From a virus: 61,160 nt of DNA. Positions 5,663 through 28,764 of this stretch are shown here, in pieces (the first letter of the stretch is position 1; each line of letters begins with the position of its first letter). A model generated the notes under the pieces. It was not told the origin of the DNA and searched no databases. It saw only the letters and a program-made list of their open reading frames with translations. A program made the translations under genes and the position numbers. The DNA lies in the IMG/VR virus record IMGVR_UViG_3300044491_002233, positions 1 to 61,160 of that record. The stretch is one strand, 5' to 3'.

Positions 5663-6319
5663 TTATTTCTTCTTAAACACCACTTCTTTCTTTCGTGATC
5701 TGCCATACTCTGTATAGCCCAGTGTGTTTAATAATTCGATGATCTTCTTCCCCGCCTGTCTCTGGAGCTCGTTTTTGTGTTCGATCTCCACATTGAGCAC
5801 ACAATCGTTATCAAGCAGTGTTTGTTGTCCACCCAGCAGTATGTCGTATTCACTGCCTTGTGTGTCTATCTTTATTAGATCTACGTTCTTGAAATTGTAA
5901 TCGTCCAGTCTCTTTATTTCTAAAACTGATTCTTCCACTTGGTCTTCGAATACCTGATCCCTAAAGAAACTGTGTGCCCCGGATGTGGTCAATGACTTAT
6001 AGAATGTTTTGGTCTCTTGTTTCGAACCTAAGCCCACTTGGTGCAGGTCATAATTTTCTTTACCTGAAAGATTTGTCTCCAAACACTCTATGTTGGAGGC
6101 ATCTGGTTCGAATATAACCACGTTCTCAAATCTGTCACAGAAATCCCTGCTCCAAAATCCTATGTTTCCGCCTATGTCTATCGCTGTATGGAAGTTCTTG
6201 ACTTGGTGTAACGCATACTCTCTCTGAAGTCTTTGGTATGTTACCTCGTTGTTTATCTTCATCCACTCTTCGTAGTGTTGATCGTAATCTGGTAAAAACC
6301 AATCATGTACTTTACGCAT
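5663..6319 (-). CDS. FkbM-family SAM methyltransferase
   Basis: 218 residues. TAIDIGGNIGFWSRDF near residues 45-60 is SAM motif I, VVIFEPDASN the motif II acidic loop, and LIKIDTQGSEYDILLGG the hallmark of FkbM (Methyltransf_21) enzymes, which O-methylate sugars and related small molecules. It stands alone after its own TTAAATA box and ends before the TRAP-protein promoter. A second FkbM gene lies at 24696-25322 inside the glycan cassette, so both may act on glycans; that is inference. Confidence 0.8.
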   Translation of the reverse strand: MRKVHDWFLPDYDQHYEEWMKINNEVTYQRLQREYALHQVKNFHTAIDIGGNIGFWSRDFCDRFENVVIFEPDASNIECLETNLSGKENYDLHQVGLGSKQETKTFYKSLTTSGAHSFFRDQVFEDQVEESVLEIKRLDDYNFKNVDLIKIDTQGSEYDILLGGQQTLLDNDCVLNVEIEHKNELQRQAGKKIIELLNTLGYTEYGRSRKKEVVFKKK

Positions 6320-6346: not shown

Positions 6347-7819
6347 TTACTGTTCTTCATCTGAGTGCAGTTCATTTAGAAGTTGTCTCAGTTTACCGCC
6401 TTCCACAGTAGCCTTAACCTTGACTCCTAACGCATCGCCTTTACGAGGATCCGGCACTTCTGGTCTAGCATCTGTGTCCGTGTTGCCCGTGACTTTGGAT
6501 GTCTGCTTCAATGAGTCATATATTTTATTCTTACCTTGCTGATTATAGCTCTGTGACTCGTCCTCGTCTAGACTTCTTATACGCAGACTGTCCACGTCAA
6601 ACTCGAGGTCTACTTTCTGTCCGACTCCCGAACTTGATCTGGTCTTCATGAACTGTATCTGGTATCTACCACGTTCCTTCATCGCCCGTGAAGTGAATAT
6701 ACCTATCACATTGTCCGCTGTCTGTATCTTGGATAGTCCGCCCGATATATGACTGTGATCAAACTCTATCTCCTCAACACTAGCCCTGTTCAACTGTGAT
6801 GCTGTAGCCAACACACACTGTTTCTCAACGACCAAGTTCCTCAGTTCCTCACTCACATACTTGTCTTTGATAAACAAGTCTGCTGGTGATATCCTTTTGC
6901 TCTTAGGCATCATCAGATCCAAGTAGTCAATCAGTATGCAGTCTATTTTCTTCTTGTTTTTCAGTTCTAGTTCCTTCAGATATGTTCTCACATCCAACAC
7001 GTTGCTACCACTCGGTAAGTATTTGATCTGCAGGTTACCTGATTTCTTTTTCAACATCTTGACCTTCATCTCAACGTTTTCTATTTCGGGAAATACTTTT
7101 CTTGTTGGAATATTTGTCATCATGGCATCCAATCTCATGGCAGTCAGTTGCTCGCTCAACTCAAATGATATGTAGCACACATTCAGTCCAGCCAGTGCCC
7201 AGTTGACCGCAAGATTCTGCAAGAACAAACTCTTACCTGCACCCGATCCACCTGCAAAGATGTTCAGCTCGCCTCTGTTGAATCCGCCAAACAGTTTCTT
7301 GTCCAAGTTGGCCCAACCTGTACTGATCTGTCCGTTGTTGTCTTTGAGTGCTTCAAGTCTTCCTTTTGGATCTTCGAAATAGTCCGTGCCGAGATCCCTT
7401 GTGAGGCCAACCTGTACTGCTTCCTTGACCATGTCCTCGACTGGACCATAGTCACCTCTCTCTAATAGATCAGCGGATGACAGTATTGCTTGTTCAAGTG
7501 CTTTGTGTCTACAAAATGTTTCAAACTCGTCCAGCAACCAATTGAAATGGCTTGGGTCCAGATCCTTCGCTGTTTTTAATTTTATATCGTGTGATGCATT
7601 GACTATGTCAACTTCTGGCATGACCTTGTACTCGTCCATGTAGTCTTTGACGAACTTGGCAATTGGTTGCAGTTTACGATCAAATGAATTAGGATTGAAT
7701 ATATTCTGTGCCCTCGCAAATGATTCAGCATCCGCCAACAACATTTCTATGTACAATTTCTGCACATCAAAAGAATAGTTCTTAGCCTGGTGTTGTTCGT
7801 TATTGTTATAGTCAGCCAT
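6347..7819 (-). CDS. 41: Replicative DNA helicase, T4 gp41 type
   Basis: 490 residues with the DnaB/gp41 RecA-like core. STGWANLDKKLFGGF leads into the Walker A loop GGSGAGKS near residues 190-197, CILIDYLDLMM near 295 is Walker B, and ASQLNRAS followed by HISGGLSKIQTADNVIGI is the conserved sensor and arginine-finger region. The N-terminal ~130 residues match the gp41 N-terminal hexamerisation part. It unwinds DNA ahead of the replication fork with the gp61 primase. In T4 relatives the primase gene is near; here a radical-SAM gene sits between them and overlaps both by 8 nt. The C-terminal ~70 residues are polar and divergent. Confidence 0.95.
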   Translation of the reverse strand: MADYNNNEQHQAKNYSFDVQKLYIEMLLADAESFARAQNIFNPNSFDRKLQPIAKFVKDYMDEYKVMPEVDIVNASHDIKLKTAKDLDPSHFNWLLDEFETFCRHKALEQAILSSADLLERGDYGPVEDMVKEAVQVGLTRDLGTDYFEDPKGRLEALKDNNGQISTGWANLDKKLFGGFNRGELNIFAGGSGAGKSLFLQNLAVNWALAGLNVCYISFELSEQLTAMRLDAMMTNIPTRKVFPEIENVEMKVKMLKKKSGNLQIKYLPSGSNVLDVRTYLKELELKNKKKIDCILIDYLDLMMPKSKRISPADLFIKDKYVSEELRNLVVEKQCVLATASQLNRASVEEIEFDHSHISGGLSKIQTADNVIGIFTSRAMKERGRYQIQFMKTRSSSGVGQKVDLEFDVDSLRIRSLDEDESQSYNQQGKNKIYDSLKQTSKVTGNTDTDARPEVPDPRKGDALGVKVKATVEGGKLRQLLNELHSDEEQ

Positions 7820-8720
7820 TTTTTACTCCACATTTTATTTTACAACATTCGTGTGCAGAAGTAAATTGTTTTGTTGAATTAAAAAAATCTTTTATCTCGT
7901 TCCATTCCATTATGCTTTCGAGTGTGTTGTCTTTGATATTGAACATCTTTGTTTTTGGTGAGAACACACTTTTGTATTTGTAATGGTAACTCCCCATCCA
8001 ACAACAGGGATAGAAATCTCCTTCTGCGTCAATATACAGGTTATGTTGTGGTTTGTCATTTACCATACAGTTTGGTAATATTGATGTTGTAAATGTTGGA
8101 TCATCGAGAATCTCTTGTGATTGTTTGTATGACATGTCGACAAACTCCTCATCGGGCATTAGGTCTTTTTCTCCCAGCCATCTGTCGCTGTGTTCCAATC
8201 TAAACTGGTCAAACCCGATATTTTTTGAAAATGTTTCTGCGTCTTTTACTTGGTGTTGATTGTGTTTGAATACTATAAATTTCCATACCAGGGTACAACT
8301 CCCTGTTCTAACACATTCGACGGCATCCATTATGGATTTCCATTTTGCATTTTTCCTATACAAATGATTGGTGTCTTCTAGCCCGTCTATAGAAAATATT
8401 AGTGTGTCATTTTTATCTAGGATGTTTGATAATACTTGCCACCATTTTTTTGTCTTGGCAGAGCCATTTGTTGTAATATGTAGTCTACAGTTGTTGTCTT
8501 TTAATTGTTTGCACAATTCTAAAAAATTAGAATGATAAATTGGATCCCCATTATTACCACACATGTTTATCGTTGCATTTGGACCAACAAAGTTTACAAG
8601 ATGTTCGATGTTTATTTCGTGCAACAATCTTTTTTTAAATGTCTCGTAGAACCAAGTCCTTGAGCACAGAGGACATTCTAATGTGCATTTACTGGTTGGT
8701 TCGACATGAAAACTAACCAT
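7812..8720 (-). CDS. Radical SAM protein with SPASM-like C-terminus
   Basis: 302 residues. CTLECPLC (Cys12, Cys16, Cys19) is the CxxxCxxC site for the 4Fe-4S cluster that cleaves SAM. Family features follow: NMCGNNGDPIYH, the strand ITTNGS, and FSIDGLEDTNHLYRK. The C-terminus has further cysteines (YPCCWMG, ECCKIKCG), as in SPASM domains holding auxiliary clusters. Known members modify peptides, proteins or sugars. Its place is striking: it overlaps the primase gene by 8 nt and the helicase gene by 8 nt, so it is co-translated with the replisome. Its substrate cannot be read; a modified gp41 or gp61, or a modified precursor elsewhere, is only a guess. Confidence 0.85.
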   Translation of the reverse strand: MVSFHVEPTSKCTLECPLCSRTWFYETFKKRLLHEINIEHLVNFVGPNATINMCGNNGDPIYHSNFLELCKQLKDNNCRLHITTNGSAKTKKWWQVLSNILDKNDTLIFSIDGLEDTNHLYRKNAKWKSIMDAVECVRTGSCTLVWKFIVFKHNQHQVKDAETFSKNIGFDQFRLEHSDRWLGEKDLMPDEEFVDMSYKQSQEILDDPTFTTSILPNCMVNDKPQHNLYIDAEGDFYPCCWMGSYHYKYKSVFSPKTKMFNIKDNTLESIMEWNEIKDFFNSTKQFTSAHECCKIKCGVKNG

Positions 8721-16577: not shown

Positions 16578-17060
16578 ATGAAAAAGACCAGTAAGAAGAC
16601 TGTCACAGTCCGGAAACAATTGAAGATCAGGTTGGAAAATACTCTGACTATGCGTAAGAACACCAGGAACTTCAAACCCACACATTCTTTAGCGGTAACC
16701 TGGTTCAAGCATCTCAACAAGGGTTTGTTTGGTAATAAGTTGCCTGCAGTACCATTGTACTTGGTAAGGATGACCAATGACTGGGGCAGGTGTTGGGCTA
16801 ATTGGGACAACAGGAAATGTAGGAAGGGCACATATGATCAGAGTGTGATACCCTATGACAAGACCGACGTCACATTCGCGATAGAGATACACACCAAGTA
16901 TCCAACGTTCCGGGACTTCATAGAAACACTGGCACACGAGATGGTGCATTTATACCAGATGACCGTTATCAAAGATCCTTACAGCAATCACAACGCAAAC
17001 TTCTATGCGTTCAAGAACAAATTCAAAAGTGCTGGATTGACCTTATCAAGAACCGGCTAA
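16578..17060 (+). CDS. SprT-like zinc metalloprotease
   Basis: 160 residues. HEMVH at 120-124 is the HExxH zinc site in TLAHEMVHLYQ, with a third ligand His138 in SNHNANFYAF, as in SprT/Spartan-type proteases. The N-terminal 35 residues are strongly basic (KKTSKKTVTVRKQLKIR). Eukaryotic SPRTN degrades DNA-protein crosslinks; phage members may clear proteins from DNA, but this is not shown. It is divergent from the uvsW operon, and its 3' end overlaps the convergent gene at 17046 by 15 nt. Upstream, TTGATA and CATACT could form a weak promoter. Confidence 0.8.
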   Translation: MKKTSKKTVTVRKQLKIRLENTLTMRKNTRNFKPTHSLAVTWFKHLNKGLFGNKLPAVPLYLVRMTNDWGRCWANWDNRKCRKGTYDQSVIPYDKTDVTFAIEIHTKYPTFRDFIETLAHEMVHLYQMTVIKDPYSNHNANFYAFKNKFKSAGLTLSRTG

Positions 17061-17798
17061 CACAGTATCCTCAAACTCTTTGTAACTCATGATTCGACTG
17101 TTACCCAGGTCCGTGCCTGTCTGTAGGTTGTGCAGGAAATCAGGGGGGTTGTCATGCACTACGGTGTAGTTCACATAAGGTCTCATCTTCAGCATCTTCC
17201 TGAATGTTGATAGCCATCCTTCGAATATGTCGTTGCCGCCTCTCTCGCCGTAGCAATCCGTGCCTTGGTAGATGTTGTTCAGTTCGCCCTTACCATACTC
17301 TCGGAAGTCGTAACCTATCAGGTAGATGTTCCGATGTCCGTGTATTCCGGCCGTCCAGAAAGCGGCGTTACCTGATATCCAGTGTGGGTTGTTGGGTATG
17401 AGATGCATCATACCTTTGTTCTGTTTCCTATTGACTTCCAGTGCTGGCCCATAGTGTATGGTCTTCAGTCCCACTTCGTCTTCGCACATTTTTACGCTGA
17501 TTTTAGTGTCAACGGAAAATATGAAGTCAGGCAGGAAGTCTCTGTACAGTGCATTACAGCCGTATGTCTGTCCGGTCGCTTTAAGTTTGTTCAGATCAAA
17601 TCCCTGTCGTGAAGGACCGTTACCTATGCAGTAAGCATTGCCGCGTGGTACTGCTTTGACTTTGTCTTCGTAGAATGCGGTCTCTTGTATTTTCTTGCCT
17701 TGCCTTATCACGGTATTGACCACAATGGTCTCGCCCATATAGGGTGTCCATTCTATAGGTTCTATGATGTTGCGTTTCCCTATGTTAATTTTTTGCAT
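17046..17798 (-). CDS. DUF115 / MptE-like Rossmann protein, glycan cassette
   Basis: The start is placed at MQKINIGKRNI (17798) because its ATG overlaps the upstream stop as TAATG; an upstream in-frame GTG-type start is unlikely. 250 residues. YCIGNGPSRQGFDLNKL and TYGCNALYRDFLPDFIFSVD match the DUF115-like fold related to MptE and to motility-associated (Maf) glycosylation factors, where a nucleotide or sugar donor is bound after the glycine loop. NAAFWTAGIHGHRNIYLIGYDF is the second conserved block. It ends the eight-gene minus-strand glycan operon. A sugar-transfer or sugar-nucleotide role is inferred. Confidence 0.65.
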   Translation of the reverse strand: MQKINIGKRNIIEPIEWTPYMGETIVVNTVIRQGKKIQETAFYEDKVKAVPRGNAYCIGNGPSRQGFDLNKLKATGQTYGCNALYRDFLPDFIFSVDTKISVKMCEDEVGLKTIHYGPALEVNRKQNKGMMHLIPNNPHWISGNAAFWTAGIHGHRNIYLIGYDFREYGKGELNNIYQGTDCYGERGGNDIFEGWLSTFRKMLKMRPYVNYTVVHDNPPDFLHNLQTGTDLGNSRIMSYKEFEDTVLAGS

Positions 17799-18667
17799 TA
17801 TATGTATTGCTCCTCTAATCTTTTTTTGATCCTTGCCCATGGCAAGCCCTGTTCTATCTCATCCTCGAACCATTCGGTGTAAGATAACTTATTTGCCCAG
17901 TTCGACCTATTAGGCATGGCCGGTGTGTTGATGTCAGATAGACTTATGTTACCCACATCATGGCAAAGGCTAGATTCTGAAACGAAAACCGGTATGCCTT
18001 TGATCACTGCCTCCATAGCAGGATTACTGGAATGATTTACCACAGCCCACGTTCTTTCCAATGTTGCCTTGAAATCCGTGTCATCATAGGTTCTAAAATC
18101 TCGTTTGGGCATTCTTACTTTAACATTCTTGAATTTGTTTTCATCAAAACTTATAATGTTACGAGGATGCGGTCTAACCAATATTGGTCTGGTTGTGTAC
18201 TTTCTGATTTCTATAATCTGTTGTTCAATCCAATTAGACATCTTTGGCAATCCCTTCCACTGCTCTGATGAGTCATGCTGTCCACATATAACTATGAGCT
18301 CTCCTGTTGGATTCCATGGGCGTAACTCATGGCCGAACAAGGACCAGCGTTGGTCGTCAAACTCTTGATTAGCGAAGTCGGCATCTCTGTTGATACCGTT
18401 TATCCCTATTTTGAAACTGAGATTCCTACGCAATCCACCAACCTCTATAACGATAACGGGTTTGCCTTGACTCCGATATCTGTTCCATATGTTCTTGTAG
18501 CTCTGCATACGTCCTTGCCACAACACGCTCCATATCACTGCGACATCACCGTTAGTTTCTTTATTGACATGTACTTCGTCACCCTCGACCTTTATTGAAT
18601 CGATAAATTTCTTAAAGATGTTTTTGCTGTTAAGGGGACCATGCATGGGCCATGCTTCTATTCTCAT
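17798..18667 (-). CDS. Capsule-type (KpsS/KpsC-like) glycosyltransferase, paralogue 1
   Basis: 289 residues of GT-B type. The C-terminal half carries RPILVRPHPRN near 155 and then WAVVNHSSNPAMEAVIKG followed by IPVFVSES, the donor-side block typical of capsule polysaccharide transferases (His, Asn/Ser, Glu). The tail SYTEWFEDEIEQGLPWARIKK parallels the same place in the paralogues at 20304, 21286 and 23887. Overlaps both neighbours by 1 nt (TAATG). Substrates unknown; with four related enzymes, successive transfer steps are likely. Confidence 0.7.
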   Translation of the reverse strand: MRIEAWPMHGPLNSKNIFKKFIDSIKVEGDEVHVNKETNGDVAVIWSVLWQGRMQSYKNIWNRYRSQGKPVIVIEVGGLRRNLSFKIGINGINRDADFANQEFDDQRWSLFGHELRPWNPTGELIVICGQHDSSEQWKGLPKMSNWIEQQIIEIRKYTTRPILVRPHPRNIISFDENKFKNVKVRMPKRDFRTYDDTDFKATLERTWAVVNHSSNPAMEAVIKGIPVFVSESSLCHDVGNISLSDINTPAMPNRSNWANKLSYTEWFEDEIEQGLPWARIKKRLEEQYI

Positions 18668-19548
18668 TATAATGATGGCGGCGCTTTCTTCCAGTAGTCG
18701 ATGGTAGGTATCGAACGTAGATCACTACGTGCAGATGTTCCTATCTTTTTTCGTTTGCCTTTCATGTGATCCATGTACTGTCCCAATTCGCTGTTAACAA
18801 ACACATGATGTCCTTTGACCCCTTTCCAATAACCTATGTCGTTAACTTTAATATTTTTCTCACTTCTATACATTTTTGATAGATGCCAAAAAACATAAGA
18901 GTCGTGCCATTCTAGTAATTTGAACACGTCGTCTGTGACGTAAAGTTTTTCCCAATCGTTAACAAAATTCTGTATCTCTGGATGATTCATGTTATATCCG
19001 ACGAACCCACATTCGGGATACTTGCCACCGTCATTTAGTTTTGGATTCTCTCTGCCTAGGTATGTGAGCATTGTGTTTTGTGGTAAAAGATTTTCAAAAA
19101 AACTCATTGGTATTGGTCTGAATGAGAATGTGTCACCGTCTATCCAAACAACGTAGTCATATTCTTTTGAATTTCGCACGGCATTCACAACGCAGAATAC
19201 TTTATTTGCGAATCTCACAGCGGCCCAGAGAAATGATCCTTTGTTTTTGTCCATGCCGCCCTTGGTCTGCAGTTCCGCCGGACGTCTTACGCCGCCTTTA
19301 ATTTCTTCAAGCTCTCCATTAGCAACAGGATCGTTTTTATGTTTGTCTTTGAATTTAAAAAGTTCCGGCTCGGCCGAATTAAGGTCAATCCAAGTTATCC
19401 TGTTGTATTTGCATTCTGGTTTTGGTTCTTCTGCATACACAACTAAGTCAATTTCTTTTGGAAATTGTTCGGCCATTGATTCTATACCCTTCTTTCCGTA
19501 CTGTTCCCACGTACCCGGTTTATATGATGTGATAACTTTAATTTTCAT
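18667..19548 (-). CDS. GT-A glycosyltransferase-like protein
   Basis: 293 residues. VVWIDGDTFSFRPI near 133-146 is the Asp-x-Asp motif for a metal-bound nucleotide sugar, and LGRENPKLNDGGKYPECGFVG... with a later EWHDSYVFWHLSK gives the acceptor-side and catalytic regions of GT-A enzymes. No membrane segment. It overlaps the sulfotransferase gene by 11 nt and meets the next gene at 18667. Family number uncertain. Confidence 0.65.
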   Translation of the reverse strand: MKIKVITSYKPGTWEQYGKKGIESMAEQFPKEIDLVVYAEEPKPECKYNRITWIDLNSAEPELFKFKDKHKNDPVANGELEEIKGGVRRPAELQTKGGMDKNKGSFLWAAVRFANKVFCVVNAVRNSKEYDYVVWIDGDTFSFRPIPMSFFENLLPQNTMLTYLGRENPKLNDGGKYPECGFVGYNMNHPEIQNFVNDWEKLYVTDDVFKLLEWHDSYVFWHLSKMYRSEKNIKVNDIGYWKGVKGHHVFVNSELGQYMDHMKGKRKKIGTSARSDLRSIPTIDYWKKAPPSL

Positions 19549-20311
19549 TTATTCTTCTATTTAAATCTTTATATCCCGGCCAGTTTAATAAAACTTGCTG
19601 TTGATCTTTTGGTAATTCGTCAATATAGTTTGATCCGCCCCTTCTGTAAAATTTAAGTTCTCCGGGTGCGTCTATGTTGTTCTTTTCTTGCATTTTCTTA
19701 AAAGTGGTTTGTTCTTTTGCATATGCAAACGCGGGTTGGTCAAAATCTCCAAATATAAATTCGATTAATCGTTGCCATTCTGAATCTTGTTTCTTGAGGT
19801 CTTCGTATCTAACAAACAACTTATTACCCGCATGTTGATTGTAATGATCTATCTGTGCATTCATGAAGTTGATTATTATATCAAATCCCCATTGCTTGTT
19901 GGTAGCAAAGTCGATGATGTCTGTATGGTCAGGGGCATCGAAATTCTTGTAAGGTATACTCTGTAGATATGGCCAGTAACTGAATAACACGTCTATGGGA
20001 TTTCTAAATAGATATATTATATTTTGCTTTTTCATTTCTTTTTGAAATATAAATTTACATTTATTCTGTATTTCGAAATATTCTTGCCACGGTATATGTC
20101 CTGTAGCACTCATCCAGTCGTGTCTGAACAGTATCCTAGGTACACCAGGTCTCGGCCTATCTACCCATTTGCTAAAATTTATTTTATATTTCTTAGCAAT
20201 GTAGTGTCCAAATAGATGTTTCATCCAAGTACGGCCACAACGAGGAAAACTTAATATTAGATTAGGTATACTATCGTATTGATTTTTAAGCACTCCAATT
20301 CTTCTATGCAT
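19538..20311 (-). CDS. Sulfotransferase (PAPS-dependent)
   Basis: 257 residues. ILSFPRCGRTWMKHLF at 19-34 is the 5'-phosphosulfate loop (family PKSGTTW; Lys is Arg here, as in many bacterial members). ILFRHDWMSATGH at 60-72 supplies the catalytic His64. IIYLFRNPIDVLFSYW at 98-113 is the 3'-phosphate motif with Arg103 and Ser111. FYRRGGSNYIDEL near the C-terminus matches RKGxxGDWKN. Known members move sulfate from PAPS to sugars, lipids or proteins. The gene sits among glycosyltransferases, so a sulfated glycan is the natural inference. All main motifs are intact. Confidence 0.85.
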   Translation of the reverse strand: MHRRIGVLKNQYDSIPNLILSFPRCGRTWMKHLFGHYIAKKYKINFSKWVDRPRPGVPRILFRHDWMSATGHIPWQEYFEIQNKCKFIFQKEMKKQNIIYLFRNPIDVLFSYWPYLQSIPYKNFDAPDHTDIIDFATNKQWGFDIIINFMNAQIDHYNQHAGNKLFVRYEDLKKQDSEWQRLIEFIFGDFDQPAFAYAKEQTTFKKMQEKNNIDAPGELKFYRRGGSNYIDELPKDQQQVLLNWPGYKDLNRRINEN

Positions 20312-21296
20312 TATCTAATCCCAATTTCTTTTTGAATCTTTTGAGTACAGTGCCGTTTCTTATCTCATCTGTACTCCACATCTTGTATCCTATATCGTGT
20401 ACCCATTGTGTCCTATCTGGGTATTCTGGGGTTTCGATGTTGTTTAAGTTTGTGTTTGCAACTGACCAACAGATCGCTAGATCCGATGTGACAAACGTGG
20501 GAATACCACGGACACATGAATCTACACTCGCGGTGCTGTTGTGTGTGACGAAGGCGTGACAGTTGGCCAATGCTTCTTGCAAATTGAATCTATAATATTT
20601 CTTTTCGTCTCCGACAAATGTTGTTGGACCTTCTATTAGTTCACAGTCTTCGGGGAATTCGTTTCTACGTCTTATCATCTGAGCCATGTGATTGGGGTGT
20701 GGTCGGATCAAGAACCTACGATCAGTAGCAGGTCGTAGTTTTTCATACACACCATTGAACCAGTCTATAGGATCTAGCTCATCCATGCTCCAGTTATCTT
20801 TGGGTTGAAGGCCAAACAGTATGGGGTCATCTTGATTTGATTTACGCCATGGTTCATATTTTATATTCCATAGGTTCTTCATCATGTTCCATCGGTCGCT
20901 TGGACTGTTATCGCTCAAGAAGTTACCGTTGTTCATTGGCGAATACAGGCTAACACGCCAGTGGTGGTTAGGGTGTGTTATCGTGTTACCAAAACTAGAC
21001 AATATGCCACCATCAAATGTAATAATGTAAATGCCTTTCTTTTTAGCACGTTCCACAAGATCCCTCCTACGTCCCTTGGTGTGGTGCAGTTGATTCTTTC
21101 CCCCGTAACCAAACATACAACCGATCGGTGCTGTTGGTTCCATTTCATCTTTACGCCACTCTCCGGTGAGTGTTTCATTTACTATTATAGGTTCATCACC
21201 ACATTGTTTTATACCCTCTTCCATGTGTTTCAGTAACTGAAAACTAGCACCATTCTTTCTATCTTTTACTGTCCTTCTAAATATCTCAACTTTCAT
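20304..21296 (-). CDS. Capsule-type glycosyltransferase, paralogue 2
   Basis: 330 residues. RRFLIRPHPNHMAQM near 192-206, then CHAFVTHNSTASVDSCVRG and IPTFVTSD, is the same donor-side block as in paralogue 1; the tail TQWVHDIGYKMWSTDEIRNG also aligns. The N-terminal ~120 residues differ (EIFRRTVKDRKNGASFQLLK), probably for a different acceptor. It overlaps the sulfotransferase gene by 8 nt and paralogue 3 by 11 nt. Confidence 0.7.
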   Translation of the reverse strand: MKVEIFRRTVKDRKNGASFQLLKHMEEGIKQCGDEPIIVNETLTGEWRKDEMEPTAPIGCMFGYGGKNQLHHTKGRRRDLVERAKKKGIYIITFDGGILSSFGNTITHPNHHWRVSLYSPMNNGNFLSDNSPSDRWNMMKNLWNIKYEPWRKSNQDDPILFGLQPKDNWSMDELDPIDWFNGVYEKLRPATDRRFLIRPHPNHMAQMIRRRNEFPEDCELIEGPTTFVGDEKKYYRFNLQEALANCHAFVTHNSTASVDSCVRGIPTFVTSDLAICWSVANTNLNNIETPEYPDRTQWVHDIGYKMWSTDEIRNGTVLKRFKKKLGLDNA

Positions 21297-22101
21297 CTAG
21301 TATCCTCTTTGCTGTCCCATCACTCATTTCGTTGGCTGTGAATTGTCCATATGCTAGACTGTAGAACAACGGTCTAGGGTCTTCATAGACAGGTTGTTCA
21401 ATGCGTGCCAAACTCTTGCCCGCGATGGGAAACGCACAATTATTGCTGTCAGCGAACACAGGTACTCCGCTTGCAAGTGCTTTTACAGTAATAGAACTAT
21501 TGTTGGTTACAACGGCGTGTATGTCGTTCCAGTCAAACTTTTCTTTTGTCGTTTTAGAATTATTTTCTCCCGTGTGCATTACGCCATTTGCACCTAGTTG
21601 CACTTCCGGATTGTAAGGTTTTTCCCGGACGATGATTTCTCTGTCCGTGTATCTTTTAAGTTCAGTCAATGTGTTTTCCAACCAATTTTCACATTTGAAA
21701 AAAGTTTTGATCGAGTTAGTGGGAGGACACACTAATATCTTCTTTCCGTTTTTGTGATACGGTCTTATTTCATGCGGAAACGTTGCTTTGAATCTGTCGT
21801 CTGGTCTTTCGTCTATGAAGTTTTTCACATGATCATTTTTGACTATCCTCATGAAGTAAGGTTTCTGCCTGCTGATACCCCAATAAGGTCTATCCATGTA
21901 ATAGAAGTCTATCTTGTTTTTCTGGCAGTGTTCGTACACTAGATTGGTTCCCCTTAATATGCCAAGCAACCAAACTTTAGTAGCATCTTTTCTGGCAATT
22001 ACTTCATTGTATGGAAGTATTTTTGATCCAGGCATTCCTTTTTGTGCAAACTCGATATACTTCTCTGTTAGTTGTCTATGTGTCTTGCTTAGGTATATCA
22101 T
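21286..22101 (-). CDS. Capsule-type glycosyltransferase, paralogue 3
   Basis: 271 residues. REIIVREKPYNPEV near 155, then HAVVTNNSSITVKALASG and VPVFADSNNCAFPIAG, and a tail RPLFYSLAYGQFTANEMSDG. The tail is nearly the same as paralogue 4 at 23887 (WLYSLAYQQFTPEEFANG), so these two are the closest pair. The N-terminus also shares the layout of a Trp/Tyr segment FYYMDRPYWG (paralogue 4: YWFTDTPYFG). Overlaps paralogue 2 by 11 nt. Confidence 0.7.
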   Translation of the reverse strand: MIYLSKTHRQLTEKYIEFAQKGMPGSKILPYNEVIARKDATKVWLLGILRGTNLVYEHCQKNKIDFYYMDRPYWGISRQKPYFMRIVKNDHVKNFIDERPDDRFKATFPHEIRPYHKNGKKILVCPPTNSIKTFFKCENWLENTLTELKRYTDREIIVREKPYNPEVQLGANGVMHTGENNSKTTKEKFDWNDIHAVVTNNSSITVKALASGVPVFADSNNCAFPIAGKSLARIEQPVYEDPRPLFYSLAYGQFTANEMSDGTAKRILDES

Positions 22102-23183
22102 TAGTCTATGTGCTTCATTAGGTCAGTGATATTAATTTTAAAGTTAATTAGATCTGTCAATCGTTTTACACCAGTTGGCTTTTTATCTTTCTCCAACGGG
22201 ATAGGCACTGTGTCTGCAAGATATAATTTGTGTTCTAGTCCCAGGTGATGTGATAATACAGGATAAACTTTCTTGTGTATCATTTTAGGATCTTGTATTT
22301 CGATTATTTTTGTTCCCGGGTCGCACCATAACAAATTTACTAGTCCTGCACCGTGTGCCGCAACAATGTGTGTAGCGCCTGCAAACGTTTTCATCTGATC
22401 TCGTATGGTCATGTTTTCTAGTGCAACTGTTTCCCAACCTTTAAGAGCTAACAGCAATTCGTCAGAGTTTGTGATCTTTCTCGTTTTCGCACCCGGACGT
22501 AACACTAAAATCTTCCTATTAGGTTTTATATCTTTTAACTCCAGACGACCTTTAAAGTGCCTTAACCATGGAGCAAGGTACGGAGTGATCACGCCATCTT
22601 TTGAGTTGCTCATGCTAGGAACCAGTAGATGCTTGAATTGCCATGTTTCGTTTTTTGGCATTACAAGAACTTTAACTTCAGGGAACAGTTCTTTGATACA
22701 TTTTTCTAGATATTTGCTTTCATTCGCCAACACATAGCAATACTTTGTGAAGTCAGTGGACCATCTCTTCTCTATCAATCTAAATTTTGATATGATGTCA
22801 ATCCATATGTGCCATGGATTGTTCACGCTCTGTTCGTCGATGGGCAACCACACATAGTAATATTTTTCATGGAAATGTTTGGTGACTGGTGGTAGGTCTG
22901 CTTGTATTTCGTCTCCCCATTCTTTCCACAGTTTGTGTGACTTGTGGGGTTTGTGTTTACTGTTGTGTGTGAGTCCCCAGATATAGTTGGTTATCAACTT
23001 CTGCTGATAGGTAACAAGCAACGGACAACTATGTACTTTGCAATCATAGAATTCAGCAACAAATGTCGGTAAACTTGTAAAATTTGATTTGACATCTTTG
23101 TGATACGGCACTGTGTAATCGTAACTGGTGTCCACAGTCTCCCATTTATCCAAGAAGTATCTGATTGAATCTATGTTCTTCAT
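22101..23183 (-). CDS. GT61-family (DUF563) glycosyltransferase
   Basis: 360 residues. KILVLRPGAKTRKITNSDEL near 243-262 and MKTFAGATHIVAAHGAGLVN with LLWCDPGTKIIEI near 284-317 are the signature of GT61 enzymes, which include beta-xylosyl and GlcNAc transferases. The HGAGLxN loop is intact. It is the first gene of the minus-strand glycan operon. Its ATG lies just downstream of the shared divergent promoter at 23185-23213. Confidence 0.8.
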   Translation of the reverse strand: MKNIDSIRYFLDKWETVDTSYDYTVPYHKDVKSNFTSLPTFVAEFYDCKVHSCPLLVTYQQKLITNYIWGLTHNSKHKPHKSHKLWKEWGDEIQADLPPVTKHFHEKYYYVWLPIDEQSVNNPWHIWIDIISKFRLIEKRWSTDFTKYCYVLANESKYLEKCIKELFPEVKVLVMPKNETWQFKHLLVPSMSNSKDGVITPYLAPWLRHFKGRLELKDIKPNRKILVLRPGAKTRKITNSDELLLALKGWETVALENMTIRDQMKTFAGATHIVAAHGAGLVNLLWCDPGTKIIEIQDPKMIHKKVYPVLSHHLGLEHKLYLADTVPIPLEKDKKPTGVKRLTDLINFKINITDLMKHID

Positions 23184-23184
23184 G

Positions 23185-23213
23185 TTGCTATTTGCCTATA
23201 ATTATACTATAAT
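23185..23213. promoter_or_regulatory. Divergent sigma70-type promoters of both glycan operons
   Basis: Plus strand: TTGCTA (23185-23190), a 17-nt spacer and TATAAT (23208-23213), 9 nt before the ATG at 23223. Minus strand: another TATAAT (23201-23206) serves the gene at 23183, with a weak -35. The two -10 boxes are one base apart, so the two operons should compete or be co-regulated. The signals point to early expression. Confidence 0.65.
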
Positions 23214-23222
23214 TATTGAGCT

Positions 23223-23912
23223 ATGCCTACCAAACTATTCATTAATGGATGTTCGTTCCTAACTTACAGACCTAAAGATAATGTCAATACTCATTGCGGT
23301 CTCGAATTGGCAAAACTGTTAGGATATGATGTCGAAGTAAACCTAGCCAATGGGGGCAGAGGGTCGAAGAGATTGATGTGGACCACTAGAGTTTGGTGTG
23401 AGAAATTCCCAGAACTTGCAGAAAACTGTTTTTTCCTAATCGGATCTAGTGGTGGAAACAGGTTTGATTATCCAACATCTGATGGATACAAGGCACATAA
23501 ATTCCCCACAATGAAGACAACTTGGAAAACTTGGGATCCAAACAGAGACAAACACACAACAAGTTTTATAAAATATCTTTTCAGCCTAGGGGCAGACCTA
23601 GATCAAATGACACAAATTGAATCTATATTAGGTCTATTAGACCTACAAGACTATTTTGAAAATAAAAAATTTCCTTACGTATTTTACAACACACTTTCAG
23701 ATAACAAAATAGAAAATCCAGATATACAATTACTATTTGATAAAATTAAAAAAGAAAGATTTTTTAAGCCAGAGACTAGTCATTTAGATTATACGGTGGC
23801 AAACAATCAGCAGTGTAAACCAAATGATCCACACCCCAATGAAGAAGGCCATAAACAATGGGCCGAACAACTGAAGGAGTTTATAGATGCTAACAATCTA
23901 CTCACCATCTAA
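23223..23912 (+). CDS. SGNH/GDSL hydrolase-like protein
   Basis: 229 residues. LFINGCSFLTY puts Ser11 in the GxS block I position, NGGRGSKR near 41 is block II (Gly), GSSGGN near 72 is like block III (Asn), and DPHPNEEGHKQW near the C-terminus gives the Asp-x-x-His pair. SGNH enzymes add or remove acetyl and other esters on glycans. First gene of the plus-strand glycan operon; overlaps the next gene by 26 nt. Confidence 0.6.
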   Translation: MPTKLFINGCSFLTYRPKDNVNTHCGLELAKLLGYDVEVNLANGGRGSKRLMWTTRVWCEKFPELAENCFFLIGSSGGNRFDYPTSDGYKAHKFPTMKTTWKTWDPNRDKHTTSFIKYLFSLGADLDQMTQIESILGLLDLQDYFENKKFPYVFYNTLSDNKIENPDIQLLFDKIKKERFFKPETSHLDYTVANNQQCKPNDPHPNEEGHKQWAEQLKEFIDANNLLTI

Positions 23913-24699
23913 TAATCTAAACAGCAAGGCTTGGGAAGTGTTTAATGGAGTTGAAAAATCATGGCCTGATCAGATCACAAAGTTAAACAACGCAGTGGAA
24001 ACAGATCCGGTCAATAACAGCATGTTCTGGGGATTTGTTGGTAACAACAGAGAAATGGTTAAGAAACTGGAAGCACGTAATCACAACTACTGGTTTACTG
24101 ATACTCCATATTTTGGCAGGTTTGACAATAACAATCTCAAACCAGATAATCACTACTGGCGTATCTGTAAGAATGCTATACACGTTCCGTACATCAAAGG
24201 ATGTAAGGCAGATAGATTTGAGAAGTTTGGTTTGAAGATTAAGGCACCTAATTTTGCTGGCAAACACATTTTGGTTTGTCCTAGTTCGGCAGGAATACAC
24301 GGGTATCTAGATAGACCAAACTGGACAAAGGAAACAATAAACCAGATCAAGAGATACACAGATAGACCCATCAAACTTCGACACAAGCCTAGGGGCAGGG
24401 GTACGTCAGGGCCGAGTGAGGCCATAGTACCTCTATCCGAAGATCTCAAAGAAGCCTGGTGTGTGGTCACTAGTTGTAGCATAGCGGCCGTTGAGGCTAT
24501 GTGTGAAGGAATACCTGTGTTCTGTGATGACAAAAGTTTCGCTGTAGATGTTGGAAACGTGGAACTGTCTGACATTGAGAATCCGTACTACGGTGGCCCG
24601 GAACCTTGGTTATACAGCCTAGCATATCAACAGTTTACACCCGAGGAGTTTGCGAATGGTACAGCAGTAGAGATATTGATGGACAAAGGAATATTATGA
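23887..24699 (+). CDS. Capsule-type glycosyltransferase, paralogue 4
   Basis: 270 residues. IKLRHKPRGRG near 156, then WCVVTSCSIAAVEAMCEG and IPVFCDDKSFAVDVG match the donor-side block of paralogues 1-3. It is the only paralogue on the plus strand, placed across the divergent promoter from its nearest relative at 21286, as if copied and inverted. It overlaps the SGNH gene by 26 nt and shares ATGA with the FkbM gene. Confidence 0.7.
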   Translation: MLTIYSPSNNLNSKAWEVFNGVEKSWPDQITKLNNAVETDPVNNSMFWGFVGNNREMVKKLEARNHNYWFTDTPYFGRFDNNNLKPDNHYWRICKNAIHVPYIKGCKADRFEKFGLKIKAPNFAGKHILVCPSSAGIHGYLDRPNWTKETINQIKRYTDRPIKLRHKPRGRGTSGPSEAIVPLSEDLKEAWCVVTSCSIAAVEAMCEGIPVFCDDKSFAVDVGNVELSDIENPYYGGPEPWLYSLAYQQFTPEEFANGTAVEILMDKGIL

Positions 24700-25322
24700 A
24701 GATTGAAAAAATAAACGGTTTCTGGGTGCCCAGCAACGATATACACATAGAAGAATGGAAAGGTGGCCAGCCTTTCACACAAAATAAATGTTTGAACAAG
24801 TTTCTAAAATACTGCAAATCACAGAATAAAAAAATGAAGACAGTTATTGATGTGGGTGCCTGGTGTGGTACATGGGCAAAAGCAATTGAACCATTTGTTA
24901 GAAAAGTAATTGCATTTGAACCTGACAAAACACATTTTACATGCCTACAGCGTAATTGCACTATCAATTGTGACCCGAGGATGGAAGCAGTTGGATCCGA
25001 AATAAAAACTATTTCATTAACCGATGATGATTTTACACAGGCAAAAAGAGTAGATAAGCAGGGCGATATAAGAATGATCACATTAGATCATATGAAGTAT
25101 CAAGACGTTGATATGATTAAAATTGATGTCGAAGGCTACGAAATGGAAGTACTTAAAGGTGCGACAAAAACTTTAGATGGTGTAACGTATCTAATGATTG
25201 AACTAAACAACAACACTAAAAAATATGGTAGCAGTAATATTGAAGTTGAAAGATATATAAACTCATTAGGATTTAAAGTACTAATGACACATTGGCCAGA
25301 CAAAGTTTTCTATCGTGCATAA
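24696..25322 (+). CDS. FkbM-family methyltransferase, glycan cassette
   Basis: The start is set at MKIEKINGFWVPS because ATG overlaps the upstream TGA as ATGA; the longer in-frame start at 24606 would lie inside the previous gene. 208 residues. TVIDVGAWCGTWAKAI is SAM motif I, IAFEPDKTH motif II and MIKIDVEGYEMEVLKG the FkbM hallmark, complete here. Probably O-methylates a sugar of the glycan made by the neighbouring transferases (inference). Confidence 0.8.
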   Translation: MKIEKINGFWVPSNDIHIEEWKGGQPFTQNKCLNKFLKYCKSQNKKMKTVIDVGAWCGTWAKAIEPFVRKVIAFEPDKTHFTCLQRNCTINCDPRMEAVGSEIKTISLTDDDFTQAKRVDKQGDIRMITLDHMKYQDVDMIKIDVEGYEMEVLKGATKTLDGVTYLMIELNNNTKKYGSSNIEVERYINSLGFKVLMTHWPDKVFYRA

Positions 25323-25328
25323 CTTAAA

Positions 25329-25335
25329 TTAAATA
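25329..25335 (+). promoter_or_regulatory. Late-type promoter before epimerase gene
   Basis: TTAAATA with 6 nt to the ATG at 25342, inside the plus-strand glycan operon. The epimerase and GT2 genes may thus also be made late. Confidence 0.5.
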
Positions 25336-25341
25336 CTCAAA

Positions 25342-26346
25342 ATGAAAATTTTTATAACAGGTATAGCAGGTTTTTTAGGTTCCCATCTAGCAGATTTAAT
25401 GATATCAGAAGGCCACACAGTTGCTGGCAATGACAACATGATTGGCGGATACGCCGACAATGTCCCCCAAAATGTAGAGTTCCATCAGGTGGATTGTTGT
25501 GATTTAGAAAACATGACCAAAGCCATGGAAGGCTGTGACATAGTTTACCATACTGCCGCAACGGCATACGAAGGTCTGTCTGTATTTTCTCCTGTGCTTG
25601 TCACAAGGAACATATTCGAAGCATCAGTCACAACTATTACAGCGGCTATAAGGAACAAGGTTAAACGTATTGTGTATTGTTCAAGCATGGCGAGATATGG
25701 CCAGCATGATCAAATGCCATACAAAGAAACATATGAATGTCGGCCACAGGATCCATATGGTATCGCAAAGAAAGCCGGTGAGGATGTATTAAAAAATTTA
25801 TGTGAGACTCATGGGGTTGAGTATGTAATTGCCGTACCACACAACATAGTTGGTCCAAGACAGAAGTACGATGACCCATTTAGGAATGTCATGTCCATTA
25901 TGTTGAACAGGATGTTACAAGGCAAACAACCTATCATATACGGAGACGGAGAGCAACAAAGATGTTTTAGTTACATAGATGATTGTTTGTACTGTTTAAA
26001 CGCACTAGCATTCCAAGACAATGTAGTCGGAGAAGTGATCAACATTGGACCAGACGAAGAACCCATAACGATCAATGAGCTAGCGGAGGCCTGTGCAAAT
26101 GAAACCGGACTTAACCTAGATCCTATACATCACAAAGACAGACCTAAAGAAGTTAAACTAGCAGTATGTTCATCAGACAAAGCAAGAGAATTATTAGGTT
26201 ACAACACGGCAACAAACATGCGGCAATCTGTTAAGAAAACAGCCGAGTACATAAGAACCAGAGGCACAAAAAAATTTCAATATCATTTGCCATTAGAAAT
26301 TATAAACGAACAAACACCCGATACTTGGAAGAACAAATTGATATGA
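25342..26346 (+). CDS. NAD-dependent nucleotide-sugar epimerase/dehydratase
   Basis: 334 residues, extended short-chain dehydrogenase. GIAGFLGSHL at 7-16 is the NAD-binding loop, SSMARYG near 114-120 holds the catalytic Ser, and Tyr139-x3-Lys143 (PYGIAKK) is the active site. VPHNIVGPRQ and FSYIDDC are the substrate-side motifs of UDP-glucose 4-epimerase-like enzymes. It would supply an epimerised UDP- or GDP-sugar to the cassette. Followed by a GT2-like gene with an ATGA overlap. Confidence 0.85.
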   Translation: MKIFITGIAGFLGSHLADLMISEGHTVAGNDNMIGGYADNVPQNVEFHQVDCCDLENMTKAMEGCDIVYHTAATAYEGLSVFSPVLVTRNIFEASVTTITAAIRNKVKRIVYCSSMARYGQHDQMPYKETYECRPQDPYGIAKKAGEDVLKNLCETHGVEYVIAVPHNIVGPRQKYDDPFRNVMSIMLNRMLQGKQPIIYGDGEQQRCFSYIDDCLYCLNALAFQDNVVGEVINIGPDEEPITINELAEACANETGLNLDPIHHKDRPKEVKLAVCSSDKARELLGYNTATNMRQSVKKTAEYIRTRGTKKFQYHLPLEIINEQTPDTWKNKLI

Positions 26347-27053
26347 TTTCATTTTGTTGTCCGTCACGAGGCAGACCTGAATTGGCAAAAAGACTAGTCG
26401 ACACTGCTACCGCAACACAAAAACACGATACAGAATTTTTATTCTATCTCAATAATGATGATGAGAAATTAGAAGAATACAAAGATTTACTAGACGAAAA
26501 ATATTATACAGTAGGACCAAATCAATCTACTTGTTACAGTTGGAACTTGATGAGTGATAAAGCCTCACACGATATCGTTATGCTCATGGGAGATGACGTG
26601 CAAGTACAAACACAAGACTGGGATCAGATAATTGCAGACGAAATAAACAAATACAAAGATAAGATTTTAATGGTAGTGCCGAGTGATGGCAGGACCAAAG
26701 GAAACAAAAATTTTGGAGATCATCCAATGTTATGGAGAGATAAACCACTGCCGGCGGCACATTTCGCAGTCCATAAGAACTGGATTAATACGCTGGGCTA
26801 TCTGGCACCGGTGTACTTCTGGCATTGGCATGTGGATTCTTATACCCAGAAAGTTGCACGTAAACTGAATAGATGTCTTTACCTACCAACAGTAGAATTT
26901 AAGGCAAAAAAAATACTCAATGACAATGCAGGCCAGCAGATAAGGGGTAATTTAAATATTGCAAAACGTGACGAGTTTGTTTGGACCAAGGTGCGTGACA
27001 GGCATATGAATGCTGACATTGCCGCGTTAAGATCTTTTATCGAATCTTTCTAA
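26343..27053 (+). CDS. GT2-like glycosyltransferase
   Basis: The start is set at MISFCCPSRGRPE from the ATGA overlap with the epimerase gene. 236 residues. The opening strand with CPSRGRPELAKRLVDT is typical of GT2-type GT-A enzymes, VMLMGDDVQVQ near 82 is the Asp-x-Asp equivalent, and YFWHWHVDSY resembles the acceptor-site region. Its 3' end overlaps the convergent gene at 27027 by 27 nt. Confidence 0.65.
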   Translation: MISFCCPSRGRPELAKRLVDTATATQKHDTEFLFYLNNDDEKLEEYKDLLDEKYYTVGPNQSTCYSWNLMSDKASHDIVMLMGDDVQVQTQDWDQIIADEINKYKDKILMVVPSDGRTKGNKNFGDHPMLWRDKPLPAAHFAVHKNWINTLGYLAPVYFWHWHVDSYTQKVARKLNRCLYLPTVEFKAKKILNDNAGQQIRGNLNIAKRDEFVWTKVRDRHMNADIAALRSFIESF

Positions 27054-27467
27054 TAGGTTTAACCACACTTCTTCTTTCATATCTATTTGTAAAACTGGTC
27101 TTCTGATGTAACTTCTTTTATTTCGAACTATTTTTATATCATTTGATCTTGTGATCAAAAAAGTATTTGGGAAATATGTTATTGTTTTTCCAGCCAACAA
27201 TATATCTTTTTCGTTACTTCTATCCGATCTTTCTTTAAAGAACCACAAGCACATGATGTCTTTGCTTTTATCTATATCTTGTAGGTCTTCATAAAACTGA
27301 AATCCGACCTTGTATTTGCTGTCAAACTCGTTCCATATGTCGTGTGTGAGATTATTTTGATTTTCGTACAGCCTGTCATACTCTTTGGTGTCATATATTG
27401 TAGAGGCAACAAAGTGTTTGACCGGTTCCTTAAAGAAATGATTTGGTTCTAATTTTTCCCACTTCAT
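27027..27467 (-). CDS. Hypothetical protein at end of uvsX-uvsY operon
   Basis: The start is placed at MKWEKLEPNHFF, whose ATG overlaps the upstream stop as TGATG. 146 residues, mixed alpha/beta, with FQFYEDL, MCLWFFKERSDR and FPNTFLITRS, ending RRPVLQIDMKEEVWLNLLERF. The layout hints at a double-stranded beta-helix fold, but no His-x-Asp pair is clear. Not recognised. Probably belongs with the GT8-like gene just upstream. Confidence 0.5.
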   Translation of the reverse strand: MKWEKLEPNHFFKEPVKHFVASTIYDTKEYDRLYENQNNLTHDIWNEFDSKYKVGFQFYEDLQDIDKSKDIMCLWFFKERSDRSNEKDILLAGKTITYFPNTFLITRSNDIKIVRNKRSYIRRPVLQIDMKEEVWLNLLERFDKRS

Positions 27468-28144
27468 CAGGCACTGAATAGATTTATGACTTCCTTCTTC
27501 CAATCATCGGCGTACTCGCAGTTCCGGTATCCGTCGAACCATGGCCCACCCTCGGTGTAGTGAAGTATCTTGGGTTTGCCGTCTTTGGGTTCCTTGTACC
27601 AACCCACCAACCAGTTATATTCATGAGGCAAAGAACCAATATCGGAGTCATCTAACCAACTAAATCTGTGTAAAAATTTTGGTGTTTCTTTGTTTAGCAC
27701 TTCCGGAGTCAACATCGTGTTCTTAGGATGTCCGCAATTCCAAAGAACCATGCTACTCCAATTTTTTCTAGGGTATGTTGTTTGCACTTGTCCATCCATC
27801 TTGATCGACCCTTCCTCGGGTGTGTAATCGTGTTGTACACAAATCACTGCCTTAGAGTCATCACAATACTTTTCGAGCTCTTTTGTAGGAATCTTCCAAA
27901 GAAAATCACAATCACAAAATACTGCCCATCCCTTGTAGTCGTTCAGGAATGGGACAAAGAATCTAGTAAATGTGAATTCTGTTGTCGCTAACTTGTCGAT
28001 GTCTCGGGTATATATGCCTTGCGCTCGCATCTCATTTTGCTTGAGAGGTATCACCTCTGCCGACGGATCCCTACGTTTGATAGAGTGTTCACACACTTGA
28101 TATGATATGTCTTCTCGCGAATCCCAGCCTACGTATACTTTCAT
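27467..28144 (-). CDS. GT8-like glycosyltransferase
   Basis: 225 residues. VYVGWDSREDISYQVCEHSI at the N-terminus, WAVFCDCDFLW near 73-83 with the metal-binding Asp-x-Asp (DCD), and ILHYTEGGPWFDGYRN near the end (His-x-x-x-Gly-x-x-W/F) follow the order of GT8-type enzymes. It shares ATGA with the HAD gene. Unusually it is carried behind uvsY in a recombination operon. Confidence 0.7.
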   Translation of the reverse strand: MKVYVGWDSREDISYQVCEHSIKRRDPSAEVIPLKQNEMRAQGIYTRDIDKLATTEFTFTRFFVPFLNDYKGWAVFCDCDFLWKIPTKELEKYCDDSKAVICVQHDYTPEEGSIKMDGQVQTTYPRKNWSSMVLWNCGHPKNTMLTPEVLNKETPKFLHRFSWLDDSDIGSLPHEYNWLVGWYKEPKDGKPKILHYTEGGPWFDGYRNCEYADDWKKEVINLFSA

Positions 28145-28764
28145 TTAGATAATATTTCGTGTATTTGTTTCCAATTATTTACACGTATTATGTCAGGATG
28201 ATTGAGGTCTCTGTTATATGGGTGGTCGATTAATATAGGCTTTAAACCGTAATAGAGCCCTGCTAGTGCGTTCTTAGGCTTGTCCTCAACCCAATACAGC
28301 CCAGTATCATGAAACTCGGCTAATGCCGAATCTTTGTCAGCACCGGTGCCTAGTATATGATAATTGGTAAACACATGCTCACCAAACAGTTCTCCCAATC
28401 TTTTCTTACGTAATTGCTGTCCCGGTATGTCTGATGTCTGTGATGTGATAGGTATGAACGTCCAACCCTCAGCGGCCAACAGTTTGACCCAAGTCTGTGA
28501 CTCCAGCATCGGTCTCTGTGTGCCCATCCAAGCACTCCTGTTGAATTCCCTAATCTCTTGTCTTATTGTGTCTTTGCTCACCCCGTACCTAATAGACATG
28601 TCGTATTCGTTTAGCATGTTTGGTAATTGTTTGTATGGGTAATATCTTTTTCCTCTTTCATCAAAATATGATCTCAACGACATCCATTTTTCGAAATGAT
28701 GTTCCCACTCTAATAACACACCGTCTACGTCTGTGAGTATTATTCTATTATTTGATGTCAGCAT
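28141..28764 (-). CDS. HAD-superfamily phosphatase-like protein
   Basis: 207 residues. IILTDVDGVLLEW puts Asp12 and Asp14 in HAD motif I, FIPITSQTSD is motif II, a Lys in QQLRKKRLGELF may be motif III, and LYWVEDKPKNA motif IV. Known members dephosphorylate nucleotides or sugar phosphates. Overlaps uvsY by 17 nt and the GT8-like gene by 4 nt, so it may prepare a sugar for that enzyme (inference). Confidence 0.75.
   Translation of the reverse strand: MLTSNNRIILTDVDGVLLEWEHHFEKWMSLRSYFDERGKRYYPYKQLPNMLNEYDMSIRYGVSKDTIRQEIREFNRSAWMGTQRPMLESQTWVKLLAAEGWTFIPITSQTSDIPGQQLRKKRLGELFGEHVFTNYHILGTGADKDSALAEFHDTGLYWVEDKPKNALAGLYYGLKPILIDHPYNRDLNHPDIIRVNNWKQIHEILSK

Follow-up and report, generated by a model that had tools for sequence, protein, structure and literature searches.

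Gene content and organization of the cassette

The window analysed here, meaning the whole stretch of DNA, is the 61,160-bp linear virus record IMGVR_UViG_3300044491_002233. Judged by its UvsX, UvsY, gp32-like, DnaB-like, sheath and neck genes, it is part of the genome of a large T4-like myophage, and its large terminase shares 55% identity with the enzyme of relatives of the Pseudomonas jumbo phage PA5oct. The window carries a tightly packed block of open reading frames (ORFs), mostly glycan enzymes, which lies between a uvsW-like helicase/SprT-like side and a uvsY/uvsX side and has the same placement in dozens of uncultured marine contigs. The initial annotation had described positions 17046-28764 as a fifteen-gene cassette on both strands, and all fifteen ORFs were found there, with seven on the minus strand (17046-23183), five on the plus strand (23223-27053) and three on the minus strand (27027-28764). 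The gene overlaps of 1-11 nucleotides (nt) that it had given for the main operon are present throughout the left arm, provided that the first gene starts at 17798 rather than 17840. The features are listed below; core and accessory counts refer to thirty distinct loci that contain the whole block.

A, 17046..17798, minus strand: DUF115/GT42-like protein; ORF called to 17840, start moved to the invariant M15 at 17798; core, 30/30
B, 17798..18667, minus strand: GT-B protein of a family of paralogues resembling 3-deoxy-D-manno-oct-2-ulosonic acid (Kdo) transferases; core, 30/30
C, 18667..19548, minus strand: probable GT-A glycosyltransferase (GT) with a conserved DxD; core, 30/30
D, 19538..20311, minus strand: 3'-phosphoadenosine 5'-phosphosulfate (PAPS) sulfotransferase, Sulfotransfer_1; accessory, 10/30
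E, 20304..21296, minus strand: GT-B enzyme with a modelled retaining beta-Kdo transferase fold; core, 30/30
F, 21286..22101, minus strand: paralogue of E with variant motifs; core, 30/30
G, 22101..23183, minus strand: GT61 glycosyltransferase with an HGAGL motif; core, 30/30 (search bait)
Putative divergent promoter region, 23184..23222: near-palindrome ATAATTATAGTATAATTAT with overlapping TATAAT-like -10 boxes on both strands, kept in relatives
H, 23223..23912, plus strand: SGNH/GDSL-like hydrolase or acyltransferase, DUF6071-like; core, 30/30
I, 23887..24699, plus strand: GT-B paralogue of E, nearest to F; core, 30/30
J, 24696..25322, plus strand: FkbM-family methyltransferase; 29/30
Candidate late-type promoter core, 25323..25341, plus strand: AAATTAAATACT, directly before K
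K, 25342..26346, plus strand: NAD-dependent nucleotide-sugar epimerase/dehydratase; accessory, 12/30
L, 26343..27053, plus strand: GT2-like glycosyltransferase; accessory, 11/30
M, 27027..27467, minus strand: small protein without a family; ORF called to 27503; accessory, 16/30
N, 27467..28144, minus strand: GT8-like glycosyltransferase with DxD and HYTxGGPW motifs; core, 30/30
O, 28141..28764, minus strand: HAD-type phosphatase with DxDG and EDKP motifs, phrog_420; core position, 30/30

Most members matched glycan-enzyme families. Four of the proposed identities passed their Pfam cut-offs: GT61 for G (PF04577, E 2e-23, 83.4 bits, cut-off 27), sulfotransferase for D (PF00685, E 1e-12, 48.3 bits, cut-off 22), FkbM for J (PF05050, E 6e-13, 49.7 bits, cut-off 22.7; TIGR01444, 70.3 bits, cut-off 37.7) and epimerase for K (PF01370, E 8e-48). 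The description as a cassette for glycan synthesis that includes a sulfotransferase and a methyltransferase of sugar type is upheld. Relatives of D also matched SULT structures (E 6e-5), and inspection of 12 sequences showed that the 5'-phosphosulfate-binding (5'-PSB) and 3'-phosphate-binding (3'-PB) motifs for PAPS are kept, SFPRCGRTW being invariant and YLxRxPxDVLFSYW nearly so. The GT2-like and GT8-like identities were likewise recovered: L matched phrog_14945 'glycosyltransferase' (E 3e-27; its start is likelier ATG 26343 than TTG 26325), and N matched phrog_28018 and is 44% identical to a protein annotated as glycosyltransferase in the marine phage Mosig. The SGNH and HAD assignments of H and O agree with those made before, on the basis of conserved motif residues and sub-threshold profile hits. 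H scored 25.9 bits against a profile cut-off of 27, and S11, G44, D202 and H204, that is the Ser, Gly and D-x-H of the SGNH blocks, are invariant, with the Asn varying in divergent alleles. O could belong to the recombination module rather than to the cassette. No Pfam or PHROG family match was obtained for C, which has a homologue in the Mosig cluster. The DUF115-like call for A comes down to a GNGPS motif and a single short alignment of low significance (E about 0.05) with CstII-type sialyltransferases of family GT42; the GT42 assignment stays weak because the AlphaFold2 (AF2) model of A is poor, with a predicted local distance difference test score (pLDDT) of 37.

Four Kdo-transferase-like paralogues

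The four glycosyltransferases B, E, F and I, previously termed capsule-type, proved to be mutual paralogues (hhalign probability 97.8-100%); B, which has RPHP and HSSNP motifs, aligned with the other three at 99.2-99.5%. One of the four, E, was modelled with AF2 (pLDDT 76) for fold comparison. The leading Foldseek matches of the model were KrkA, WbbB and KpsC, and the top 15 rows of VIA-align were all Kdo transferases (Z 11.8-13.2), the next fold being UDP-N-acetylglucosamine (UDP-GlcNAc) 2-epimerase at 11.0. The model of E therefore has the retaining beta-Kdo-transferase GT-B fold, which is a statement about fold and not proof of Kdo transfer. The likeness to KpsC, WbbB and KrkA lies in this fold, whereas sequence identity to E is 9-13%, and neither the E profile nor a combined B/E/F/I profile gave a sequence-profile match to Kdo-transferase structures. 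Profile searches of PDB sequences with E, C, N or the combined B/E/F/I profile gave no match, and the putative GT family DUF6716 fell below the cut-off in the family search.

Conservation and variation of the locus

Relatives were collected with two queries, the sulfotransferase, which gave 14 viral loci, and GT61, which gave 112 relatives, of which 80 were kept. Complete copies of the cassette lie at the same place in thirty related marine myovirus-like contigs, the setting in which a search for it had been proposed. Ten genes (A, B, C, E, F, G, H, I, N and O) are in every complete locus and J in 29, compared with 16 for M, 12 for K, 11 for L and 10 for D; cassette length ranges from 10.1 to 18.2 kb. 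Since 30 distinct contigs keep the same placement and core gene order, the block is conserved far beyond chance.

The cassette also diversifies faster than its flanks, because the proteins of the core cassette genes have median identities of 44-83% to those of the window, versus 94-96% for UvsX/UvsY and 91% for the UvsW-like helicase. In one relative (L074), DNA identity to the window is 88% over uvsY/uvsX, and broken matches of 68-74% extend across most of the cassette. Genes inserted in relatives include asparagine-synthase-like (15 loci), 2-oxoglutarate-Fe(II) (2OG-Fe(II)) oxygenase-like (20 loci), further FkbM (12 loci) and radical S-adenosylmethionine (SAM) genes, and single or few insertions of another sulfotransferase (L094), a GDP-mannose dehydratase (L039) and a C-methyltransferase (L081).

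D and G had no match in 50,697 phage records. A search of genome contigs for relatives of E in bacteria gave three metagenome-assembled genome (MAG) contigs, binned as Gammaproteobacteria, Verrucomicrobia and Pelagibacter (L097, L098 and L099). Two of them contain extended parts of the phage locus; the third, 3.4 kb long, has no more of it than homologues of G, F and E, arranged as in the phages. None of these matches, which are probably misbinned phage DNA, therefore points to a bacterial donor or host. Identity of the lineage with the moraphages, which have core GTs and Bacteroidota hosts (PMC12619734), was considered, and the link could not be made.

Promoter classes by motif

The initial annotation had placed a sigma70-type promoter between the divergent arms and had taken expression to be early. 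The near-palindrome at 23184-23222, with its TATAAT-like boxes, is conserved, and a generic sigma70 scan showed no excess of promoter-like sites (36 versus 44 expected from shuffles). The scan was dropped as promoter evidence for this reason, and conservation in relatives was used instead; the divergent region is accordingly treated as a putative promoter on conservation.

Of the 27 sites in the window that have a second motif, [AT]TAAATA, 18 precede a gene start on the same strand by no more than 100 nt, a zone that makes up about 5% of the space, and most of the genes concerned are structural. The corresponding figure for a 196-kb relative (G001), which also encodes a gp55-like late sigma homologue, is 44 of 78. 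By motif, [AT]TAAATA is a presumptive T4-type late promoter. The structural genes at 31831-54857 of the window are preceded by this T4-like late motif, TAAATA(C), from which a genome-wide late regulon of the lineage could be defined.

TAAATA is absent from the divergent region 23184-23222. Because this region lacks it and has conserved TATAAT-like boxes, a predicted early or middle class is reasonable for the main cassette arms; in the neighbouring g14/SprT region, TTGAC-TATAAT is found. To this extent the claim of early expression stands for the main arms. Upstream of K, TAAATA was found in 39 of 41 regions from relatives, and the block is unchanged in about 27 of 29, although adjacent positions vary. 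K and L may accordingly be expressed late, or both early and late. The idea that the cassette acts as one pathway is weakened by this separate element and by the variable presence of D, K and L.

Missing steps of a glycan pathway

The earlier claim of a complete pathway was not borne out. One epimerase is present. A search of 13 related records, which are fragments and in which positive controls were detected, gave no priming phosphoglycosyltransferase (PF02397), flippase (PF01943) or adenosine 5'-phosphosulfate (APS) kinase. No cassette protein has a clear membrane span, K having one marginal N-terminal segment, and no ORF of the 196-kb relative has more than 4 predicted membrane spans. Host lipid carriers and exporters would thus be needed. 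The cassette genes include no nucleoside diphosphate (NDP)-sugar kinase or nucleotidyltransferase; PF02348 was found in 1 of the 13 fragmentary records, outside the cassette, and one relative encodes a cytidine monophosphate (CMP)-sugar synthetase-like (cytidylyltransferase)/RraA fusion next to a DnaB-like gene (L096:607-1896). The host, or further phage genes outside the fragments, must supply sugar donors, PAPS, a lipid carrier and a means of export. The 196-kb relative has a second sugar cluster (L108:541-8920, about 119.9-128.3 kb) with radical SAM/SPASM, carbamoyltransferase, epimerase, DegT aminotransferase and Gfo/Idh genes, which resembles Mosig 61.5-71.3 kb.

Comparison with known phage clusters

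A pathway of this sort had been thought undescribed; clusters of the same kind are already known. P-SSM2 and its relatives have a 15-gene capsule/lipopolysaccharide (LPS) cluster for which superinfection exclusion is proposed (PMC7824862). P-SSM2-type jumbo cyanophage clusters share paralogous GT families, epimerases, polymorphism and, in variants, O-methyltransferases with the present cassette, but differ in having sugar kinases, nucleotidyltransferases and isomerases, and the section of that paper which describes them makes no mention of sulfotransferases or Kdo-transferase-like paralogues. The pelagimyophage host-recognition cluster is also a GT-rich hypervariable island of T4-like marine phages, with GT8 the commonest family and O-chain modification proposed; it sits with tail fibres (PMC7029224), whereas the cassette here lies between recombination genes and has a near-constant core. 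Paralogous GTs, an NAD-dependent epimerase/dehydratase (12/30 here) and polymorphic gene content are shared with clusters of this kind.

The T4-like marine phage Mosig (EXVC030M, MT647606.1, 124832-130666) has homologues of F, I, C and N, two FkbM-like methyltransferases and a 'putative sulfotransfer' gene in one run, and an A-like gene elsewhere in its genome. It differs in that its sulfotransferase was undetected as a homologue of D, E was matched through paralogues only, GT61, SGNH and epimerase genes are missing from that run, and the genome position is another. The Mosig genome announcement does not discuss the cluster. New here are the constant core, the Kdo-transferase-like paralogues, the genome position and the sulfotransferase family.

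Other genes of the window

On the minus strand at 4658-5581, the phage encodes a TRAP-type extracellular solute-binding protein, DctP (PF03480, E 4e-36). TAAATA occurs upstream of its gene, and a weakly Asp/Arg hydroxylase-like gene lies nearby at 3412-3966; in Mosig, an Asp_Arg_Hydrox gene is paired with a phosphate-binding transporter gene. A radical SAM/SPASM protein at 7812-8720 (minus strand) is flanked by DnaB-like helicase and primase-like genes, and a second FkbM methyltransferase (5663-6319, minus strand; PF05050, E 3e-16) adjoins the DnaB-like helicase.

Discussion

Kdo-type and GT61/GT8 enzymes typically take part in assembling LPS and capsule, and the host surface is a plausible target of the cassette. 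The likeliest reading, for which we judge the case to be about evenly balanced, is that this is a variable glycan locus of a large T4-like marine phage lineage which remodels a host lipid-linked glycan, probably lipid A-core. We infer the acceptor, donor sugars, export route and effect as follows. After infection, host RNA polymerase would transcribe both arms from the divergent promoter, and up to nine soluble GTs (the four Kdo-transferase-like GT-B paralogues and the GT61, GT8-like, GT2-like, DxD GT-A and DUF115/GT42-like proteins) would lengthen or remodel an oligosaccharide on the cytoplasmic side of the host inner membrane, drawing on nucleotide sugars of the host and on the product of the phage epimerase. 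The FkbM enzyme may methylate this oligosaccharide, the SGNH enzyme may add or trim an acyl group, and the sulfotransferase, where present, may sulfate it from host PAPS. The simplest acceptor would be the lipid A-core of the host or a different lipid-linked intermediate that it makes, and the host exporters MsbA/Lpt or Wzx would carry the glycan out, so that the altered surface may hinder adsorption of competing phages. Host-surface change and a superinfection block are proposed, not shown, for the cited similar clusters.

Several points weigh against host-glycan remodelling. The cassette is placed within a recombination/replication module, the Kdo-transferase fold of E does not fix the donor, and the core was defined on contigs fetched with GT61 or sulfotransferase baits. 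The argument is built on sequence, models and published parallels. Moreover, the late-type element at K and the TAAATA upstream of the second FkbM gene both suggest a degree of late activity, which would suit modification of the virion.

Virion glycosylation, in which cytoplasmic enzymes attach a glycan, methylated and in some cases sulfated, to capsid, tail or fibre proteins and so shield or tune the particle, is the main rival and in our view somewhat unlikely. Mycobacteriophages and chlorovirus PBCV-1 are examples of such glycosylation. It is consistent with the soluble appearance of all enzymes, with export genes being neither required nor detected, with the late-type element before K, and with a core kept in every complete copy; virion glycosylation by phage GTs is also cited in PMC12619734. 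However, the main divergent promoter is not of late class, Kdo-type GTs belong to envelope glycans, and accessory polymorphism better fits competition at the cell surface. The location next to uvsX/uvsY and uvsW-like genes would fit DNA hypermodification, with the GTs decorating modified bases against restriction, which we regard as improbable. Phage GTs do modify DNA, as in RB69 arabinosylation (PMC6024577), and PMC12619734 and PMC10829341 cite, respectively, further work on DNA-modifying phage GTs and GT/sulfotransferase base-modification systems. But no thymidylate-synthase-family (dCMP/dUMP hydroxymethylase) gene was found in the 13 incomplete records including the 196-kb one, HMUDK_hel was not found in the incomplete records, and Tet_JBP gave no match, its positive control likewise being undetected; nine GTs with acyl, methyl and sulfate steps also exceed known DNA glycans. 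Highly improbable, finally, is a soluble or small glycosylated metabolite as the product, as proposed for some jumbo cyanophage clusters, namely those with carbamoyltransferases (PMC7824862). Asparagine-synthase-like, radical SAM and carbamoyltransferase genes do occur in relatives, but the core is GT-rich with four Kdo-transferase-like paralogues, and no halogenase, nonribosomal peptide synthetase (NRPS) or export genes were seen in the cassette.

Accessory variation around a near-constant core, together with diverged genes between conserved flanks, is what would be expected of a surface serotype locus. We tentatively raise the possibility of a phage serotype locus in which the fixed core makes a Kdo/ulosonate oligosaccharide and exchangeable genes diversify it with sulfate, methyl, amide or other sugars, so that related phages would mark infected cells, or their own particles, with differing glycans, some of them sulfated.

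Surface remodelling is the usual, unproven interpretation of such clusters. In the present case, one locus in dozens of related contigs combines a constant core with exchangeable decoration genes, and the isolate Mosig, which grows on Pelagibacter ubique HTCC1062, has a similar sulfotransferase-containing cluster. Because of this conserved locus and isolated relative, the question of the target, whether host envelope, virion or DNA, is testable by mass spectrometry. If true, a phage-directed sulfated glycan would be a new surface chemistry in the competition among ocean phages.

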